Source: Anaerolineales bacterium
Lineage (GTDB): Bacteria; Chloroflexota; Anaerolineae; Anaerolineales; UBA11579
Direction: 5' to 3'
Length of the DNA stretch: 64,000 nucleotides
Assembly (NCBI GenBank): GCA_025808555.1
Contig: CP075526.1
Location: 1,318,712-1,382,711, forward strand
Under the pieces are notes generated by a model. It did no database searches, was not told the DNA's origin, and saw only the letters and a program-made list of their open reading frames with translations. A program made the translations under genes and the position numbers. Of the stretch, positions 25,732 through 34,855 are shown piece by piece (the first letter of the stretch is position 1; each line of letters opens with the position of its first letter).

Positions 25732-26088
25732 ATGGAACAAAACTGGCTTTTTATTGGCGTGTTCGTTGCAATTGCGGGAGTTTTCCCTCTTTTGCCGATC
25801 ATTATTGCGCAGATCCTGGCCCCGCGCAAACCCAACCACATCAAGCTTGAGACCTACGAATGCGGTATGGAGACGGTGGGCGACACCTGGGTGCAGTTCA
25901 AGGTGCAGTACTACATTTACGGCCTGGTTTTCCTGATCTTTGATATTGAAACTGCCTTCCTGTACCCGTGGGCTGTGGCTTACGGCGTGCTGCCGATGTT
26001 TGCGGTTGTTGAAGGCGTGATCTTCATCCTGATCCTTGCGGGCGGCCTTTTCTACGCCTGGCGCAAGGGTGCCCTGGAATGGTCTTAA
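25732..26088 (+). CDS. nuoA: NADH-quinone oxidoreductase subunit A
   Basis: Small membrane subunit of complex I at the junction of the membrane and peripheral arms. 118 residues with three spans; the loop after span 1 has the family hallmark ETYECGMETVGD, including the conserved Cys, and span 2 follows FKVQYYIYGLVFLIFDIE. First gene of the nuo cluster. nuoB, C and D, which usually follow nuoA, are absent here; nuoH is next. Confidence 0.95.
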   Translation: MEQNWLFIGVFVAIAGVFPLLPIIIAQILAPRKPNHIKLETYECGMETVGDTWVQFKVQYYIYGLVFLIFDIETAFLYPWAVAYGVLPMFAVVEGVIFILILAGGLFYAWRKGALEWS

Positions 26089-26144: not shown

Positions 26145-27329
26145 ATGTCTTTTTGGACAGACCCGATCTTAGTAGCAAACGAGTGGCTGACAGGGCTGCT
26201 GACCGACCTGTTGCCCGAGGCCTGGGCGACCCTGATCGGCACCATTATTGGTGTGGTGGTGGTCTCATCCTTTGGCCTGATCCTGGTGATCTTCCTGATC
26301 TGGCTGGAGCGCAAGGTGGCGGCCCGCTTTCAAGACCGCATTGGCCCCAACCGGGCCGGCCCTTACGGCTTGCTGCAGACGATCGCTGACATCGTAAAGC
26401 TGCTTACTAAGGAAGACAGCATCCCTGAGAAGGCGGACAAGCTGACCTTCAACCTGGCGCCGATCGTTTCGATGATCGCAGTGTTGCTGATCTGGGCGGT
26501 TATTCCGTTTGCGCCTGGCTGGATCGGCACCGATCTGAACGTGGGCGTGCTGTACATCGCCGCGGTGGGGTCTTTCGGTATTCTCTCGATCCTGATGGCA
26601 GGCTGGGCGTCCAATAACAAATACGCGCTGCTAGGCGCTTTCCGCGCCGTGGCGCAGCTGATCTCCTACGAAGTGCCGATGCTGCTGACCCTGCTGGTGC
26701 CGGTGTTGCTGGCGCGCAGCATGGGCATGATGCACATGGTGGAGGTGCAGAGCACCTGGTTCATTGTGCTGGCCCCGGTGGCGGGCGTCATCTTCCTGGT
26801 CTCCTCGATCGCTGAGGTTGGCCGCACTCCGTTCGATCTTATTGAAGCTGAATCCGAAATTGTGGCCGGTTACCACACTGAGTACACCGGCATGAAGTTT
26901 GGCCTGTTCTTTGCGGCTGAGTTCCTGCATGCGTTCACGGTGGGTGTGCTGTTCGCCATTCTGTATCTGGGCGGCTGGCGTGGCCCGGGCGCTGAGCAGT
27001 ATCCGATCCTGGGCGTTATCTACCTGATGGCAAAGGCCAGCATTGGTTATTTCATTGTGATGTGGGTTCGCAGCACGCTGCCGCGCATCCGCATTGACCA
27101 TATGCTGGACCTGAACTGGAAGGTGCTGACGCCGATCTCGCTGGCCTTGCTGATCGCAACGGCGGTGCTGGACAAGCTGTTCGCCGAGACGGCGCTACGC
27201 GTGCCGACCCTGCTGGCCGGCAACCTGGTGGTGCTGGCGTTGAGCTGGTTGCTGTTGCGAGGTATGTCTCGCAAGGCGCGCCGCGAACGCCAAGTCTTCA
27301 AGAAACGCCCGGAGGCCCGTGCGGTTTAG
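26145..27329 (+). CDS. nuoH: NADH-quinone oxidoreductase subunit H
   Basis: Membrane subunit that forms much of the quinone-binding chamber and the start of the proton path. 394 residues, eight spans. Conserved features: LERKVAARFQDRIGPNRAGP after span 1 and the acidic loop LIEAESEIVAGYHTEY. The C-terminal basic tail (RKARRERQVFKKRPEARAV) is longer than in E. coli. An agaggaaa ribosome binding site lies upstream. Confidence 0.96.
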   Translation: MSFWTDPILVANEWLTGLLTDLLPEAWATLIGTIIGVVVVSSFGLILVIFLIWLERKVAARFQDRIGPNRAGPYGLLQTIADIVKLLTKEDSIPEKADKLTFNLAPIVSMIAVLLIWAVIPFAPGWIGTDLNVGVLYIAAVGSFGILSILMAGWASNNKYALLGAFRAVAQLISYEVPMLLTLLVPVLLARSMGMMHMVEVQSTWFIVLAPVAGVIFLVSSIAEVGRTPFDLIEAESEIVAGYHTEYTGMKFGLFFAAEFLHAFTVGVLFAILYLGGWRGPGAEQYPILGVIYLMAKASIGYFIVMWVRSTLPRIRIDHMLDLNWKVLTPISLALLIATAVLDKLFAETALRVPTLLAGNLVVLALSWLLLRGMSRKARRERQVFKKRPEARAV

Positions 27330-27362: not shown

Positions 27363-27878
27363 ATGACTGCAATGCAAGGTGTCTTTCTTTTCGCTGCCGG
27401 CCTGATCCTCTGGGCCGCTTTTATGATGGTGACGCGCCAGAACCTGGTGCACGCCGCCTTCTACTTGATCATGGCGCTGTTCGGCGTGGCGGTGATCTTT
27501 GTGCTGCTGGACGCCGGCTTCCTGGCGGTGGTGCAGGTGCTGGTGTATATCGGTGCGATCTCGATCATCATGATCTTTGCGGTGATGCTTACCCGCGGCG
27601 ATGTTATTGAAGAAGCCCCAGTAAACAAGAACTATGGCTGGGCATTGCTGCTGGCGGCCCTGTTCGCCTTTGGCCTGATCATTCTGATCGGCCAGTGGCC
27701 GGCGGTGGCCAGCCTGGCGGGCGAGATCGACACCAGCCGCGATCTGGCGGCTGAGCTGGGCGTGGCCCTGGTATCGCCTGAGGGTTTTGTGATCCCGTTC
27801 GAAGTGGCTTCGGTACTGCTGTTGGCGGCCCTGGTGGGCTCGCTACTGGTGGCCCGCCCGCAGAAGAAAGGTAAGTAA
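27363..27878 (+). CDS. nuoJ: NADH-quinone oxidoreductase subunit J
   Basis: Membrane-arm subunit of 171 residues with five spans; span 3 carries the conserved VQVLVYIGAISIIMIFAVML, including the Tyr and Gly around the pi-bulge that transmits coupling. It is followed 8 bases later by nuoK. Confidence 0.94.
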   Translation: MTAMQGVFLFAAGLILWAAFMMVTRQNLVHAAFYLIMALFGVAVIFVLLDAGFLAVVQVLVYIGAISIIMIFAVMLTRGDVIEEAPVNKNYGWALLLAALFAFGLIILIGQWPAVASLAGEIDTSRDLAAELGVALVSPEGFVIPFEVASVLLLAALVGSLLVARPQKKGK

Positions 27879-27886
27879 GCGACGCT

Positions 27887-28195
27887 ATGATCCCGCTTTC
27901 CTGGTACCTGGTGCTGGCCGCCCTGCTGTTCTGCATTGGCCTGTATGGTGTGCTGGCGCGCAAGAACGCCGTGGCTATTTTGATGGGTGTTGAGCTGATG
28001 CTTAACGCGGTAAACATCAACCTGGTGGCCTTTTGGCGCTATTTCACGCCTGACCTGATTGCTGCGCATGCTTTTGTAGTGATCGTGTTTGCCATTGCTG
28101 CCGCTGAAGTGGCGGTTGGCCTGGCCCTGATCATTTCCATCTACCGCCGCCGCAAGACCGTGGCCGCGGACGAAATCAACTTGATGAAGTGGTAA
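27887..28195 (+). CDS. nuoK: NADH-quinone oxidoreductase subunit K
   Basis: Membrane subunit of 102 residues with three spans. The conserved glutamate of span 2 (GVELMLNAVNINLV) and that of span 3 (AAAEVAVGLALI), both on the central proton axis, are present. It lies 8 bases after nuoJ and 3 bases before nuoL. Confidence 0.95.
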   Translation: MIPLSWYLVLAALLFCIGLYGVLARKNAVAILMGVELMLNAVNINLVAFWRYFTPDLIAAHAFVVIVFAIAAAEVAVGLALIISIYRRRKTVAADEINLMKW

Positions 28196-28198
28196 GCA

Positions 28199-30355
28199 AT
28201 GCCGACTGAAACTTTGATCTGGCTTATTCCGCTCCCGCCGCTGCTGGCGTTCTTCCTTATTCTGCTGTTCACGCGTAAGAACAACGCCCTGAGCCATACG
28301 GTGGGCGTTGTGGCGGCGGCCACCTCGTGGCTGCTCGGTATGCTGGTGTTCTTCGCCGCAGTTGGCATTGACCACTTCGGCGAGCACCCGTTCCATTCTG
28401 CCATCGCGTGGCTGCCCACGGGCGAGACCGTCTTCAACATTGGCGTGATGATCGACCCGCTGAGCGCGGCCGTGCTGTTCTTTGTGGCCTGGACCGTGCT
28501 GATGATCTTCATCTACAGCATTGGCTATCACAACTTTGGCGCTCCCAAGGGTGACCATGACAAGCCGGGCCTGCCGCCGCACGGCGCGGAGGATCATGGC
28601 CACCATGTGCCCTCGGTGGAGCCGATGTACTCGCGCTTCTTTGCCTTCATTGCCCTGTTCGCCTTCGGCATGTATACGCTGGTGGTATCTGACAACCTGC
28701 TAACCCTGTTCGTGGGTTGGGAGATCATGGGCTTGTGTTCGTACCTGCTGATCGGCTTCTGGTACGCCAAGCCTTCGGCACGCGATGCGGCCAAGAAGGC
28801 GTTCCTGACCACCCGTATCGGTGATGTGTTCATGCTGCTTGGCATTGTGGCCCTGTACTCGGCCACCGGCACGCTGAACTTCCACGAAATTTTGCGCAAC
28901 GAGAATATTCTGCACATGCTGGCCAGCTCGCCCAGCGGCGTGTTGGGGCTTTCGGCGGCTGGCCTGATCGGCCTGCTGCTGTTCATTGGCACGGTGGGCA
29001 AGTCTGCCCAGTGGCCGCTGCACGTGTGGCTGCCGGATGCGATGGAGGGCCCGACCCCGGTCTCGGCCATGATCCATGCGGCCACGATGGTGTCGGCCGG
29101 TGTGTACATGGTGCTACGCATGTTCCCGCTGCTCTCGGCGGGCTGGCACCACGGCGACCCGCTGACCACCACCATGACGGTGATGGCGTTCTTTGGTGCC
29201 TTCACGGCCATTTTTGCGGCCACGATCGCCCTGGCACAAAAGGACATCAAACGCGTGCTGGCTTACTCCACCATTTCGCAGCTGGGCTTCATGATCGCGG
29301 CCCTGGGCATTGGTGCGTATGTGGCGGCGGCGTTCCACCTGGTAACCCACGCATTCTTCAAGGCGTTGCTGTTTTTGGGATCGGGCTCGGTCATTCATGG
29401 TATGGAGCACGGCGTGCTGCACACCGGCGAGCATGTAGACCCGCAGGACATGTTCAATATGGGCGGCTTGAAGAAGAAGATGCCGATCACGTTCTGGACC
29501 TTCCTGATCGGCGGCTTTGCGCTGTCTGGCTTCCCGCTCATTACTTCGGGCTTCTGGTCCAAGGATGAAATTCTGGCGGATGCATTTGCCAATCATCACT
29601 ATGCGCTGCTGATCACCCTGTCCCTGGCGGCGCTGCTGACCGCGTTCTACACGATGCGGCAGATCACCCTGACCTTCTTCGGCGAGCCGCGCACCAAGGC
29701 GGCTGACCACGCCAGCGAGAATAAGCTGGTGATGACCGGCCCGCTGATGGTGCTGTCTGTGTTCGCCATCATTGCCGGTTGGGTGGGCATCCCTGAGCAT
29801 TTCCCAGTCATCGGCGGTTTGCTGCCGAACTGGTTCCACGATTTTGTGGGCAGTACGCTGCTGGAGCACCCGCACGCGCCAGACTTCAGCTGGATCCCGC
29901 TGGGCATCTCGCTGGGTGTAGCGCTGGGCGGTCTGGGGCTGGGCTGGCTGGTGTATCGCAAGGCCGGCAGCGAAGACCCGCTGCGCAAGCCGCTGGGGCC
30001 GGTGTATACGCTGCTGGAGAACAAGTACTACTTTGACGAGCTGTATACCAAGATCTTCATTCGCCCGGCGGGTGTGATCGCCGAGAAGTTCTCGTACTGG
30101 TTCCTGGACCGCAAGGTGATCGATGGTGTGCTGCACTGGATCGCGCAGAACTCGGTCAATCTTGGCCTGGTATTCCGTGACCGCTTCGAGACGCCGGTCA
30201 TCTCTGGCGTTGCCGATTGGGCGGCCAACAGCACGGCGGCAATTGGCCGCGTGCTGCGCAAGGTGCAAACCGGCCTGGTGCAACAATACCTGCTGCTGGT
30301 GGCCCTGGTTGCCTTTGGCGGCCTCTTCTACTATCTATTCACTGTGCTGCGCTAA
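28199..30355 (+). CDS. nuoL: NADH-quinone oxidoreductase subunit L
   Basis: Distal antiporter-like proton-pumping subunit with the long lateral helix. 718 residues, about 100 longer than E. coli NuoL. The pump residues are visible: Glu in VGWEIMGLCSYLLIGFW, the Lys of GTVGKSAQWPLHVWLPDAM, and the later LAQKDIKRVLAYSTISQLG. A His-rich hydrophilic insertion (GDHDKPGLPPHGAEDHGHH, about residues 119-137) lies between early spans. Confidence 0.95.
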   Translation: MPTETLIWLIPLPPLLAFFLILLFTRKNNALSHTVGVVAAATSWLLGMLVFFAAVGIDHFGEHPFHSAIAWLPTGETVFNIGVMIDPLSAAVLFFVAWTVLMIFIYSIGYHNFGAPKGDHDKPGLPPHGAEDHGHHVPSVEPMYSRFFAFIALFAFGMYTLVVSDNLLTLFVGWEIMGLCSYLLIGFWYAKPSARDAAKKAFLTTRIGDVFMLLGIVALYSATGTLNFHEILRNENILHMLASSPSGVLGLSAAGLIGLLLFIGTVGKSAQWPLHVWLPDAMEGPTPVSAMIHAATMVSAGVYMVLRMFPLLSAGWHHGDPLTTTMTVMAFFGAFTAIFAATIALAQKDIKRVLAYSTISQLGFMIAALGIGAYVAAAFHLVTHAFFKALLFLGSGSVIHGMEHGVLHTGEHVDPQDMFNMGGLKKKMPITFWTFLIGGFALSGFPLITSGFWSKDEILADAFANHHYALLITLSLAALLTAFYTMRQITLTFFGEPRTKAADHASENKLVMTGPLMVLSVFAIIAGWVGIPEHFPVIGGLLPNWFHDFVGSTLLEHPHAPDFSWIPLGISLGVALGGLGLGWLVYRKAGSEDPLRKPLGPVYTLLENKYYFDELYTKIFIRPAGVIAEKFSYWFLDRKVIDGVLHWIAQNSVNLGLVFRDRFETPVISGVADWAANSTAAIGRVLRKVQTGLVQQYLLLVALVAFGGLFYYLFTVLR

Positions 30356-30364
30356 CGGAACCTC

Positions 30365-31921
30365 ATGGACTTTGTGAATTCGCATCTTCTCTCGTTGATC
30401 TTATTCAGCCCGCTGGCGGCGGCGCTGATCGTGCTGCTGCTGCCCGGCCAGAACAAGAACCTTGCCCGCCGGGTGGCTTTTGTGCTGAGCTTGGTTCCGC
30501 TGGGGCTGACGCTGCTGGCCTGGTTCGGCTTTGAGGCGGCCCCGGTGGTGGACGGCTTCCGCTTCCAAGAGCAGACGGTTTGGTACAGTGCGATCAACTC
30601 CAACTATCACCTGGGCATTGATGGTCTTTCGCTCAGCATGGTGTTGCTGACCGCGATCCTGACCCCGATCGCCATCCTGGCTTCGTTCGGCGTTGAGGAA
30701 AAGGTCAAGACGTATATGGCTCTGTTCCTGGCGCTGGAGACCGGCATGCTGGGCGTGTTCCTCTCGCTGGACCTGTTGCTGTTCTTTGTATTCTGGGAGA
30801 TCGGCCTGGTGCCGATGTTCTTCCTGATCGACCAGTGGGGCAGTGCCAAGGGTGAGCGCGAACTGTGGAACGGCATGAAGGTGCCGGCCCGTCGCTACGC
30901 CTCGTTCAAGTTCATGATCTACACCATGGCCGGTTCACTGGGATTGCTGCTAGCGATCCAGATGATTGGCGTGGTTTCTGGCACGTTTGACCTGATCGCT
31001 ATCTTCCAGAGTTGGCCGGCGCTGCAAGGCACGCTGTTCGGCCTGCCGGTCGCGACCGTGAAGAGCATTGCCTTCTGGGCGTTTGCGATCGCGTTCGCCA
31101 TCAAGGTGCCGGTGTGGCCGTTCCACACCTGGCTGCCGGATGCGCACACCGAAGCGCCCACAGCCGGCTCCATGATCCTGGCCGGCGTGCTGCTGAAGCT
31201 GGGTGCGTATGGTTTCCTGCGCCTGGTGCTGCCGCTGTACCCTGAGCAGGCCCAGCAGTATGCGGGCGTGCTGGCGCTGCTGGCCACGGCGGCGATCGTG
31301 TTTGGCGCCCTCTCGGCCTGGGCGCAAACGGACTTCAAGCGCCTGGTGGCCTATTCCTCTGTGAACCATATGGGCTTCGTGGTTCTGGGCATCGCCGCGG
31401 CGGCGTATGCGGCCGGCACCGAGAGCGCAACGATCGCCATGAATGGCGCCGTGCTGCAGATGTTCAACCACGGCATTTCGGCGGCGGCGATGTTCTTTTT
31501 GGTGGGCGTGATCTACGAGCGCACGCACACGCGTGACCTTGAGCAGTTTGGCGGCCTGTTCCCGCTGGTGCCGCTGTACGGCGCACTGTTGATCCTCAGC
31601 TCGATGGCTTCGCTGGGCCTGCCCGGTTTGAACGGCTTCGTGTCCGAGTTCCTGGTGGTGCGCGGCGCCTGGCCGATCTTCACGGCCTACACGGCCATTA
31701 GCATGATCGGCCTATTCTTCACCGGTGCGTATATCCTCAAGGGGATCGCCAAGACGCTGCACGGCCCGCTGAACGAGCACTGGAAGGGTCATATCAGTGA
31801 GATCAACGGCCGCGAGCTGTTGGTGATGGCGCCGCTGGTGGTGCTGATGCTGTGGCTCGGCTTCTGGCCGGCCTGGCTGCTCAACGTAATCAATCAAGCC
31901 GTTGTGGCATTGTTCGGCTAA
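30365..31921 (+). CDS. nuoM: NADH-quinone oxidoreductase subunit M, first copy
   Basis: Antiporter-like subunit of 518 residues. The pump residues are intact: Glu in FWEIGLVPMFFLI, Lys in FAIKVPVWPFHTWLPDAH, and Lys in ILAGVLLKLGAYG. It starts 9 bases after nuoL and ends 10 bases before the second nuoM, so it is the canonical copy in the pair. Confidence 0.94.
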   Translation: MDFVNSHLLSLILFSPLAAALIVLLLPGQNKNLARRVAFVLSLVPLGLTLLAWFGFEAAPVVDGFRFQEQTVWYSAINSNYHLGIDGLSLSMVLLTAILTPIAILASFGVEEKVKTYMALFLALETGMLGVFLSLDLLLFFVFWEIGLVPMFFLIDQWGSAKGERELWNGMKVPARRYASFKFMIYTMAGSLGLLLAIQMIGVVSGTFDLIAIFQSWPALQGTLFGLPVATVKSIAFWAFAIAFAIKVPVWPFHTWLPDAHTEAPTAGSMILAGVLLKLGAYGFLRLVLPLYPEQAQQYAGVLALLATAAIVFGALSAWAQTDFKRLVAYSSVNHMGFVVLGIAAAAYAAGTESATIAMNGAVLQMFNHGISAAAMFFLVGVIYERTHTRDLEQFGGLFPLVPLYGALLILSSMASLGLPGLNGFVSEFLVVRGAWPIFTAYTAISMIGLFFTGAYILKGIAKTLHGPLNEHWKGHISEINGRELLVMAPLVVLMLWLGFWPAWLLNVINQAVVALFG

Positions 31922-31931
31922 AGGTGAATTG

Positions 31932-33404
31932 ATGGCCTTTCCTTTTCTAAGCGCAATTGTTTTACTGCCCATCCTGGCCGGTGTGGTTTTGCTGTTCCTG
32001 CCGCCCAAGAACCACAAGCTGATCTACAGCTTCGCCCTGGCCGTGGCCCTGGTGACCTTCCTGCTGTCGATCGTGGTGTATGTGGGATTTGACACCAACG
32101 GGCCTCCCTTCCAGTTCATTGAGAAGTACGACTGGCTGCCGCAGCTGCGCATTAGCTACCACGTGGGCGTTGACGGCATTGCCGCGCCGCTGGTGCTGCT
32201 GACCGGTGTGGTGATCTTCACTGGCGTCATCATTTCGCAGCGCATCGATGACCGCCCGCGCGAATTCTTCGCCTTCCTGTTCCTGCTGGCCAGCGGTGTG
32301 TTCGGTGTGTTTGTGGCCCTGGACCTGTTCGCCCTGTTCTTCTTCTACGAGATCGCCGTGTTCCCGATGTACCTGCTGATCGCCATTTGGGGATGGAAGC
32401 AGTCACGTGAGTACGCGGCGATGAAGCTGACCCTTTACCTGTTCATTGGCTCGGTGATCGCCCTGGTTGGCGTGCTGGCGATGTACTTCAACTCCGGGCT
32501 CTACACGTTTGACTTTCTGGCCTTGCAAAACGCCAACTTCTCGCCTGAGTTCCAGAAGCTGTGGTTCCCATTCGTGTTCTTCGGCTTTGCGGTGTTGGGC
32601 GGCATCTTCCCGTTCCATAATTGGAGCCCGGTGGGCCATGTGGCCGCCCCGACGGCGGTCTCCATGTTCCATGCCGGCGTGCTGATGAAGCTGGGCGCGT
32701 TCGCGGCGCTGCGGGTGGGCATCATGCTGATGCCCGAGGGTGCGCAGTTCCACATGTGGTGGATCCTGCTGCTGACGCTGGTGAACGTGGTGTATGGCGC
32801 GTTCATCGCCATGACGCAGACCGACTTCAAGTACATGATTGGCTATTCGTCCGTTTCGCACATGGGTCTGGTGGCGATGGGTCTGGCGACCCTGAACCAC
32901 GATGGCCTGGTGGGCGCCAGCGTGCAGATGGTCTCCCACGGTGTGATGACGGCTCTGTTCTTCGCGGTGGTCGGCATGATCTATGACCAGGCGCACACCC
33001 GCCAGATCCCCGAATTGGGCGGGATGATGAAGATCATGCCGTTTGCTGGCATTGCGTTCATCATCGGCGGCCTGGTATCGATGGGCATGCCAGGCTTCTC
33101 CGGCTTTGTGGCCGAGTTCCCCATTTTCATGGGCGTGTGGGCGGATACGCCGTGGATCGCCATTGTGGCGGCCATCTCGATCGCCGTGACGGCCGCCTAT
33201 ATTCTGCGGGCGGTGGGCAAGGTGTTTTTTGGCGAACTGCCGGCTGCGCTGGAAGGCCACATGCACGACATCAAAATCTCTGAGAAGCTGGCGCTGGGCA
33301 TTCTGTGCGTCATCATGATCGTGATCGGTATCTTCCCCAGTGTGGTTGTTCCCATGGTTGAGCACGGCGTTGAGGCGGTGCTGGCCCTGGTAGGAGGCGC
33401 GTAA
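31932..33404 (+). CDS. NuoM-like antiporter subunit, second copy, lacking one key lysine
   Basis: A second NuoM-family protein of 490 residues. The Glu of span 5 (FFYEIAVFPMYLL, E140) and the Lys of span 8 (AGVLMKLGAFA, K253) are kept. The Lys that normally precedes the PFHxW motif is replaced: FAIKVPVWPFH of the first copy aligns with FAVLGGIFPFH here, so Lys becomes Leu222. The WLPDAH motif is also altered (WSPVGH). Start ATG at 31932 with AAGGTG upstream. It is the penultimate gene of the cluster. Confidence 0.92.
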   Translation: MAFPFLSAIVLLPILAGVVLLFLPPKNHKLIYSFALAVALVTFLLSIVVYVGFDTNGPPFQFIEKYDWLPQLRISYHVGVDGIAAPLVLLTGVVIFTGVIISQRIDDRPREFFAFLFLLASGVFGVFVALDLFALFFFYEIAVFPMYLLIAIWGWKQSREYAAMKLTLYLFIGSVIALVGVLAMYFNSGLYTFDFLALQNANFSPEFQKLWFPFVFFGFAVLGGIFPFHNWSPVGHVAAPTAVSMFHAGVLMKLGAFAALRVGIMLMPEGAQFHMWWILLLTLVNVVYGAFIAMTQTDFKYMIGYSSVSHMGLVAMGLATLNHDGLVGASVQMVSHGVMTALFFAVVGMIYDQAHTRQIPELGGMMKIMPFAGIAFIIGGLVSMGMPGFSGFVAEFPIFMGVWADTPWIAIVAAISIAVTAAYILRAVGKVFFGELPAALEGHMHDIKISEKLALGILCVIMIVIGIFPSVVVPMVEHGVEAVLALVGGA

Positions 33405-33406
33405 CT

Positions 33407-34855
33407 GTGTTTGGCACCATTACCCCTGACATGATTTTGGCCATTCTGCCGGAAATATCTCTTCTGGTGGTTTTGGCGATCGTCTTTATTGTTGACCTGG
33501 TGCTGCCGGAGACGCGCCGCGGCATTTTGGCAGTGATCACTGCCGTGGGCCTGGCGGCGACCTTTGCGCTGACCCTGCTGTATGCTAACCCGGGCAACAG
33601 CGCTGAGCTGGTGTGGGGCGGCATGCTGCGCCACGATATGCTGGCGTATGTGGCCAAGCTGCTGTTTATCTTTGCGTCGTTCATTACGGTGCTGCTGAGC
33701 GTGAAGCTGGACAACGTATGGCTGAAGGGTGAGTACTACCTGTTGCTGCTCACCTCCACGATCGGTATGACCCTGATGGCCGCTTCGGCTGACCTGGTGA
33801 TGCTGTTCCTGGCAATCGAGACCACCTCCATCCCTCTGTATATTCTGGCCGGTTTCATGACCGGCGACAACAAATCCACCGAGGCGGGTTTCAAGTACCT
33901 GCTGTTCGGCGCCATGACGACGGCGGTGATGCTGTACGGCTTCAGCCTGCTGTTCGGTTTTGCGGGCAGCAGCAATCTGTATGTGATGGCTGATGCGATC
34001 AGCGCGGGCGCGGTGCCTGGCCCGGTGCTGGTGGGCACGCTGGTGCTGGTGCTGCTGGGCCTGGGCTTCAAAGTGGCGATCGTGCCGATGCATTTCTGGG
34101 CGCCGGATGTGTACGAAGGCGCGCCCACGCCGGTTACGGCGTTCCTGTCTACCGCGTCCAAGGCGGCGGGCTTCATGGTGCTGGTGCGGGTGATGCTGGC
34201 CAGCTTCCCCAACATCTTGGCGGACTGGCAGCTGATGCTGGGCATCCTGGCGGCCGCGTCTATGTTCATTGGCAATGTTGTGGCGCTGACCCAGAAGAAC
34301 ATCAAGCGCCTGCTGGCCTACTCAGGCATTGCGCATGCCGGTTACGCTCTGCTGGGCGTGGTGGCGGCTTCTGAACTGGGCGTGGCCAGCGTGATGTATT
34401 ACTTGCTGGTGTATGTGGTCACCAATATGGCTGCGTTTGGCGTGGTTGTGATCGTGGCGCGGGTGACCGGCTCAGATGAGGTTGAAGATTTTGCGGGTTT
34501 GCAGCGCCGCTCGCCCATGCTGGCGTTAGTGCTGCTACTGGCTTTCCTGTCATTAGCGGGTATTCCGCCGCTGGGCGGCTTCATTGCCAAAGTGCTGGTG
34601 TTTGCCGCGGCAGTGGAAGCGGGTTTTGTGTGGCTGGCCGTTCTGGGTGTTTTGGCTTCCATCATTGGCTTGTACTACTACTTGATCGTGCTGAAAGTCG
34701 TGTATCTGGACCAGCCAAAGAGCGAGGAGCCTGTGCCGGTGGAACGGGCGCATGGTGTAGCTATTCTTGCCAGCGTGCTGCTGGTGCTGATTCTGGGCGT
34801 GATCATTGCCCCTGCTTATGAGTGGGCCATTGCGGCTGCAGGCTCGCTGTTTTAG
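33407..34855 (+). CDS. nuoN: NADH-quinone oxidoreductase subunit N
   Basis: Third antiporter-like subunit, adjacent to NuoK in the complex. 482 residues from a GTG start that follows the previous stop by 2 bases. The conserved Glu (LAIETTSIPLYILAGF) and the Lys of GFKVAIVPMHFWAPDVYEGAP are present, as is the later ITQKNIKR-like TQKNIKRLLAYSGIAHAG. It is the last nuo gene here. Confidence 0.95.
   Translation: MFGTITPDMILAILPEISLLVVLAIVFIVDLVLPETRRGILAVITAVGLAATFALTLLYANPGNSAELVWGGMLRHDMLAYVAKLLFIFASFITVLLSVKLDNVWLKGEYYLLLLTSTIGMTLMAASADLVMLFLAIETTSIPLYILAGFMTGDNKSTEAGFKYLLFGAMTTAVMLYGFSLLFGFAGSSNLYVMADAISAGAVPGPVLVGTLVLVLLGLGFKVAIVPMHFWAPDVYEGAPTPVTAFLSTASKAAGFMVLVRVMLASFPNILADWQLMLGILAAASMFIGNVVALTQKNIKRLLAYSGIAHAGYALLGVVAASELGVASVMYYLLVYVVTNMAAFGVVVIVARVTGSDEVEDFAGLQRRSPMLALVLLLAFLSLAGIPPLGGFIAKVLVFAAAVEAGFVWLAVLGVLASIIGLYYYLIVLKVVYLDQPKSEEPVPVERAHGVAILASVLLVLILGVIIAPAYEWAIAAAGSLF

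Follow-up and report, generated by a model that had tools for sequence, protein, structure and literature searches.

A NuoM of a two-NuoM complex I belongs to a lysine-less lineage in which a helix-8 histidine may replace the helix-7 lysine

Complex I of the 2M type, whose founding paper is reportedly that of Chadwick et al. (2018), carries two NuoM subunits. In the stretch of DNA analyzed here (64,000 nucleotides, further called the window), the second of two adjacent nuoM genes encodes a protein deprived of the helix-7 lysine, a residue central to the current models of complex I coupling. Is this gene a damaged copy of its neighbor, or does it encode a working module in which another residue has taken over the role of the lysine? 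A working lineage without this Lys would bear on most of the proposed mechanisms. The window was placed in Chloroflexota because named Anaerolineae and Chloroflexi loci joined it in the tree presented below. The genes of the operon are as follows:

25732..26088, plus strand, nuoA (Pfam PF00507)
26145..27329, plus strand, nuoH
27363..27878, plus strand, nuoJ
27887..28195, plus strand, nuoK
28199..30355, plus strand, nuoL (718 aa), all key charged residues kept
29918..30283, plus strand, lateral-helix segment of nuoL, about E. coli 500-592 (coordinates counted by hand)
30365..31921, plus strand, nuoM1, ordinary Lys-type NuoM (518 aa)
31932..33404, plus strand, nuoM2, lysine-less NuoM (490 aa), assigned from the translation, TIGR01972, alignment and AlphaFold2 model
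33407..34855, plus strand, nuoN (482 aa)

The second nuoM lies inside the nuoL-nuoN operon in the order nuoL-M1-M2-N, and the proposal that NuoM2 supplies the additional NuoM subunit of a 2M-type complex proved right. The 2M complexes described in Chloroflexi and Nitrospira share with it the two nuoM genes between nuoL and nuoN, the longer NuoL lateral helix, and the fused nuoCD located with nuoB and nuoI elsewhere (PMC7117926, PMC8004040, PMC9040806). Cultured Chloroflexi with 2M complexes have the same layout as the window genome (the Lost City Chloroflexi paper, PMC7117926), and a set of 12 nuo genes, two of them nuoM, is described in Chloroflexus (PMC8004040). In the window genome, nuoB, the fused nuoCD, and nuoI were grouped approximately 0.6 Mb from the window; no nuoE, nuoF, or nuoG was found beside this distant group. 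A further complex I operon of this genome (L130) comprises nuoA, B, F, G, H, J, K, L, N and only one nuoM, which encodes a NuoM of the Lys type.

The segment of the window NuoL equivalent to E. coli residues 500-590 was 120 residues long, roughly 28 more than in the single-NuoM operons, and contained the lateral-helix insertion of about 26-29 residues typical of 2M complexes. The median length was 121 (range 116-124) in the two-NuoM operons (n = 32), 93 in the single lysine-less operons (n = 55), and 92 in the Lys-type operons (n = 21), the last with two exceptions of 123 and 125. Hence, the longer lateral helix suggested as a check in the original prediction was observed (120 residues vs. the single-NuoM medians of 92-93). 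The two exceptions, each a long NuoL segment with a single NuoM, were L130:9333-11429, from the second complex I of the window genome (125), and L118:2277-4241 (123); therefore, the NuoL insertion alone is no proof of a second NuoM.

NuoM2 scored 456.5 bits against TIGR01972 (NuoM), above the curated cut-off of 263.8. Its AlphaFold2 model, built with 37 sequences, had a mean pLDDT of 93.5 and is predicted to adopt a complete, plain NuoM fold, with helix 7 broken at 224-227, just past Leu222; the top Foldseek match was 8qby_M, and the best VIA-align match gave Z 57.3 and rmsd of 1.4 over 488 residues. By family score and fold, the protein was classified as a NuoM, a variant one. Among the PDB matches to NuoM2 and to the Bacteroides NuoM, none was the structure of a lysine-less protein; the best match for both was one Paracoccus NuoM with the Lys present (271 and 244 bits, respectively).

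The key residues were identified using E. coli NuoM from NC_000913 as the reference, the alignment of NuoM2 being gapless over helices 7-8. Their codons, with positions counted from 31932, are as follows:

32349..32351, plus strand, Glu140, helix 5, equivalent to E. coli E144, kept
32367..32369, plus strand, Met146, helix 5, Glu+6, equivalent to NuoL Ser150, Lys in the relatives of class C (see below)
32595..32597, plus strand, Leu222, helix 7, equivalent to E. coli NuoM Lys234
32625..32627, plus strand, Ser232, equivalent to E. coli Leu244 and to the Paracoccus Leu242 gate
32670..32672, plus strand, His247, helix 8, equivalent to E. coli NuoM Leu259 and NuoL His254
32688..32690, plus strand, Lys253, helix 8, equivalent to E. 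coli K265, kept
33114..33116, plus strand, Glu395, helix 12, equivalent to E. coli E407, kept

Most of what had been read from the sequence held. Leu222 aligned gaplessly with Lys229 of NuoL, Lys217 of NuoN, Lys247 of the window NuoM1, and Lys234 of E. coli NuoM, and the same absence of the helix-7 Lys was found in 241 scorable relatives. The WLPDAH motif was changed to WSPVGH, as reported (HNWSPVGH in full); its V is local to NuoM2, most relatives having WSPDGH. The Glu of span 5 and the Lys of span 8 were indeed retained, as was the helix-12 Glu (E140, K253, E395), and H229, K300, H310, and H336 were also present. An alternative Lys at an equivalent place of span 7, which would have overturned the claim, was not found: K209, the sole basic residue of this span, is 13 positions removed from Leu222, near the N-terminus of the span, and about half of the relatives have a basic residue there.

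The fold, the helix-5 Glu, the helix-8 Lys, two His, and the helix-12 Glu are common to NuoM2 and the ordinary NuoM/ND4 of E. coli and Paracoccus, whereas the NuoM2 lineage differs in the change of the helix-7 Lys to Leu/Ile, of the Leu gate to Ser, and of a helix-8 Leu to His. This His247, not noticed earlier, falls gaplessly on NuoL position 254, the same helix-8 alignment position as the histidine switch of NuoL and MrpA. NuoM2 departs from NuoL at the other switch positions, having L222, V250, L251, M252, and T340 where NuoL has the helix-7 Lys, T257-M258-V259 following the His, and K342. The His247 site may act like the histidine switch, but NuoM2 does not qualify as a NuoL.

Protein searches over the relatives and the phylum gave a first set of 174 distinct aligned NuoM proteins (that of E. 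coli included), 84 without and 90 with the helix-7 Lys. The substitution at Leu222 is no chance event, since these 84 of 174 sequences lacked the Lys and the accompanying changes were fixed. Many of the lysine-less proteins were the only NuoM encoded between nuoL and nuoN. When the HxWSPxGH motif was sought in a collection of named genomes, at least 119 stretches matched; 80 loci among the matches listed were analyzed. By title, these listed loci came from Bacteroidota (Bacteroides, Prevotella, Flavobacteriaceae), Fibrobacter, Zixibacteria, Latescibacteria, Acidobacteria, Rokubacteria, several 'Deltaproteobacteria', Phycisphaerae, Acidimicrobiia, Omnitrophota, Clostridiales, Chloroflexi, and others, indicating that the lysine-less lineage spans about a dozen phyla.

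When 32 genomes taken from the listed motif matches were searched whole for NuoM (E 1e-40), 14 had a single match, which was lysine-less in all 14 (in G508 as judged by locus L171). Among the isolates in this group were Bacteroides congonensis, Phocaeicola massiliensis, Butyricimonas synergistica, Hoylesella loescheii, Mediterranea massiliensis, and Salegentibacter sediminis. The loss of the Lys was not confined to the 2M complexes: 84 loci had only lysine-less NuoM (some of them ending early at the locus boundary), 36 had both kinds, and 22 only the Lys type. The partner subunits in the single lysine-less operons are ordinary and intact, NuoL keeping K229, H254, K305, K342, and K399 in 55/55 and NuoN keeping K217 in 67/68.

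Which residue accompanies the absence of the Lys was analyzed in an enlarged set, in which 441 rows yielded 416 distinct NuoM over residues 100-400; 415 were scorable (L150 was gapped at the key site), and hits of insufficient length or scoring below about 180-200 bits were left out. Several of the searches were limited to their best loci (30 at most each), and what these searches contributed to the counts does not represent phylum frequencies. Of the 415, 174 had Lys222 without His247, 228 had His247 without Lys222, nine had a helix-5 Lys146 with neither of the two (class C), four had none of the three basic residues (three Fibrobacterota and L099), and not a single one combined Lys222 with His247. 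Class C comprised eight proteins, L203 and L266 being identical. In the phylum of the window alone, covered by a protein search independent of the motif (n = 168), the numbers were 87 with the Lys, 77 with the His, three with the helix-5 Lys, and one with none. Position 232 was Ser in 228/228 of the His class (the motif scan itself demanded a Ser-like codon there), and Leu in 173/174 of the Lys class; in class C it was Ala, Val, or Thr. E140, K300, H310, and E395 were kept in nearly all of the 228 His-class sequences.

Position 146 corresponds in the alignment to NuoL Ser150 and position 247 to NuoL His254. According to a 2026 simulation paper (PMC13358369), NuoL His254 is a switch, one conformation of which points toward the Lys-Glu pair with an H-bond to Ser150. 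This contact beside the pair makes the three alternative basic sites neighbors in NuoL; they may likewise be adjacent in NuoM2. Three sequences without any of the three basic residues (L149, L171, L192; Fibrobacter, Fibrimonadales) had a second helix-5 Glu two residues after the usual one. A doubled helix-8 Lys (GVLKK, 252-253) was seen in six His-class sequences (L368, L372, L373, L374, L382, L384).

Maximum-likelihood trees were constructed with columns 146, 222, and 247 removed. All lysine-less NuoM fell into a single clade with SH-aLRT of 97 in the first tree and 100 in the second, both trees coming from quick searches and having long outgroup branches flagged by the program. NuoM2 was inside this clade, and NuoM1 grouped among the Lys-type NuoM. 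NuoM2 was 34% identical to NuoM1 and 45% identical to the Bacteroides NuoM. The placement of NuoM1 and NuoM2 in different deep clades and their 34% identity mean that the 2M operon joins two old lineages; the same two observations ruled out a recent tandem duplication of NuoM1. Within the lysine-less clade, the His was lost in seven independent comparisons, with a gain of the helix-5 Lys in five of them and nothing visible in two; the sign test for the His-to-Lys swap gave p 0.0625, the minimum possible from five informative pairs. Within the genus, the 55 NuoM2 pairs had a median pairwise dN/dS of 0.087; for NuoM1, where 54 of the 55 pairs could be used, the median was 0.086, so NuoM2 is under purifying selection equal to that on NuoM1.

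The part of the original prediction that did not survive was the decaying duplicate; the extra 2M NuoM, the missing helix-7 Lys, and the longer NuoL segment all stood. The word 'copy' does not fit a protein with 34% identity to NuoM1 in a separate deep clade, nor was the Lys 'lost' from a duplicate, its loss mapping to the base of a multi-phylum clade. As for 'silent', a lysine-less NuoM was the sole match in 14/32 genomes, and the dN/dS values given above are those of a constrained gene. An extra copy in the operon without a residue essential elsewhere would suit a silent or decaying NuoM1 duplicate, yet the dN/dS equal to that of NuoM1, the uninterrupted reading frames of the close relatives listed, the age of the clade, and its role as sole NuoM elsewhere contradict it. 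The silent copy was ruled out by selection and distribution, and we regard a duplicate in decay as very improbable.

With a probability of roughly 60%, we propose that NuoM2 serves as the fourth antiporter-like subunit in the 2M complex and works as a proton module whose relay has been rewired, coming from an old lineage that shifted the basic residue paired with the helix-5 Glu to another site. In ordinary NuoM, this paired residue is the Lys at the helix-7 break; with Leu at this site in NuoM2, the helix-8 His at the NuoL switch position would take over. His247 could move between the Glu140 side and Lys253, as partner of the former and donor to the latter, the remaining relay (Glu140, Lys253, His310, His336, Glu395) being retained. 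NuoM2 would assemble between the other antiporter-like subunits, protons would still be passed along the central axis, and the 2M complex would contain two consecutive NuoM modules with different tuning. For the lineage of about a dozen phyla as a whole, we judge slightly better than even the chances that a Glu(helix 5)-His(helix 8) pair replaces the Lys-Glu pair, with about five later moves to the helix-5 Lys.

Several observations count against a rewired working module. In Paracoccus, K232Q, at the helix-7 Lys, and L242A, at the Leu corresponding to Ser232 of NuoM2, each abolish catalysis (PMC9802314). Both essential residues are absent here, hence the coordinated rewiring of His247 with Glu140 and Lys253 that we propose. 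Deletion of nuo in Bacteroides fragilis left the NADH:quinone activity and mouse colonization unchanged (PMC7002350); the nuo operon of this species is described as having no nuoEFG (PMC7002350). The four NuoM without any basic residue and a sign test reaching only p 0.0625 also weigh against the rewiring. The Paracoccus mutants would suit a passive relay, in which NuoM2 assembles and transmits charge or a conformational change but moves no proton of its own, the 2M complex still pumping four protons; the ordinary NuoM1 adjoining NuoM2 in the window fits this too. Such a spacer would, however, leave a two-module pump wherever the lysine-less NuoM is the sole one (many operons, 14/32 genomes), would not be expected to keep the other relay residues (E140, K300, H310, E395 in the His class), and by drift would not give the rule that the replacement obeys. 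We consider it a minority explanation, about one that might hold in a single case of five. A change of ion choice, with the NuoL/MrpA-like His marking a shift of NuoM2 toward Na+ rather than H+, is suggested by the proposal that helix VIII of NuoL/MrpA, including His254, is an ion-specificity site (PMC4938563); since the other NuoL residues of this helix are absent (T257, M258, and V259 are V250, L251, and M252 in NuoM2), it seems improbable, though less so than the decaying duplicate.

The rewired module has a precedent in formate hydrogenlyase, where a His of a neighboring helix takes the switch place (PMC13358369); there it is the His that has moved, whereas in NuoM2 the ion-pair Lys is replaced. 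According to a review, every antiporter-like subunit has a helix-7 Lys that pairs with a Glu of helix 5 (PMC10212512). The lysine-less NuoM, its separate deep lineage, and the His/Lys exchange are absent from the accessible portions of the 2M accounts (PMC7117926, PMC8004040, PMC9040806). No report of either the lysine-less NuoM or the exchange was found in the open literature; subscription papers were mostly outside the search, so an earlier notice is possible. If the rewiring is true, what coupling through NuoM requires would be a basic residue at one of a few clustered sites rather than that particular Lys, and the 2M arm of Chloroflexota would join Lys-type and His-type modules from two deep lineages. 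A natural Lys-free lineage, present also as the sole NuoM in common gut genera such as Bacteroides, would directly test the role of the Lys-Glu pair. Two further points that it would test are whether the histidine switch is peculiar to NuoL and whether a fifth proton is indeed pumped by the 2M complex.

Other observations concern the operons and the genome. In 12 of 14 lysine-less nuo operons (L430-L443, about 19 kb read each), nuoF and nuoG were not seen. Their absence was rejected as a marker of the lysine-less type since the Lys-type operons L444 and L445 also show none. Locus L340, from the Acidobacteriota search, had two NuoM, a lysine-less one with the helix-5 Lys and one of the Lys type, seen directly; the same pairing at L405, from the Myxococcota search, was deduced from 26 NuoM rows on 25 loci. 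Both are possible 2M complexes outside Chloroflexota. Finally, two more Proton_antipo_M proteins with open frames of 786 and 525 aa are encoded in the window genome at G000:C1:636601-640763; judging from their lengths, they probably belong to a cation/proton antiporter, as subunits resembling MrpA and MrpD.
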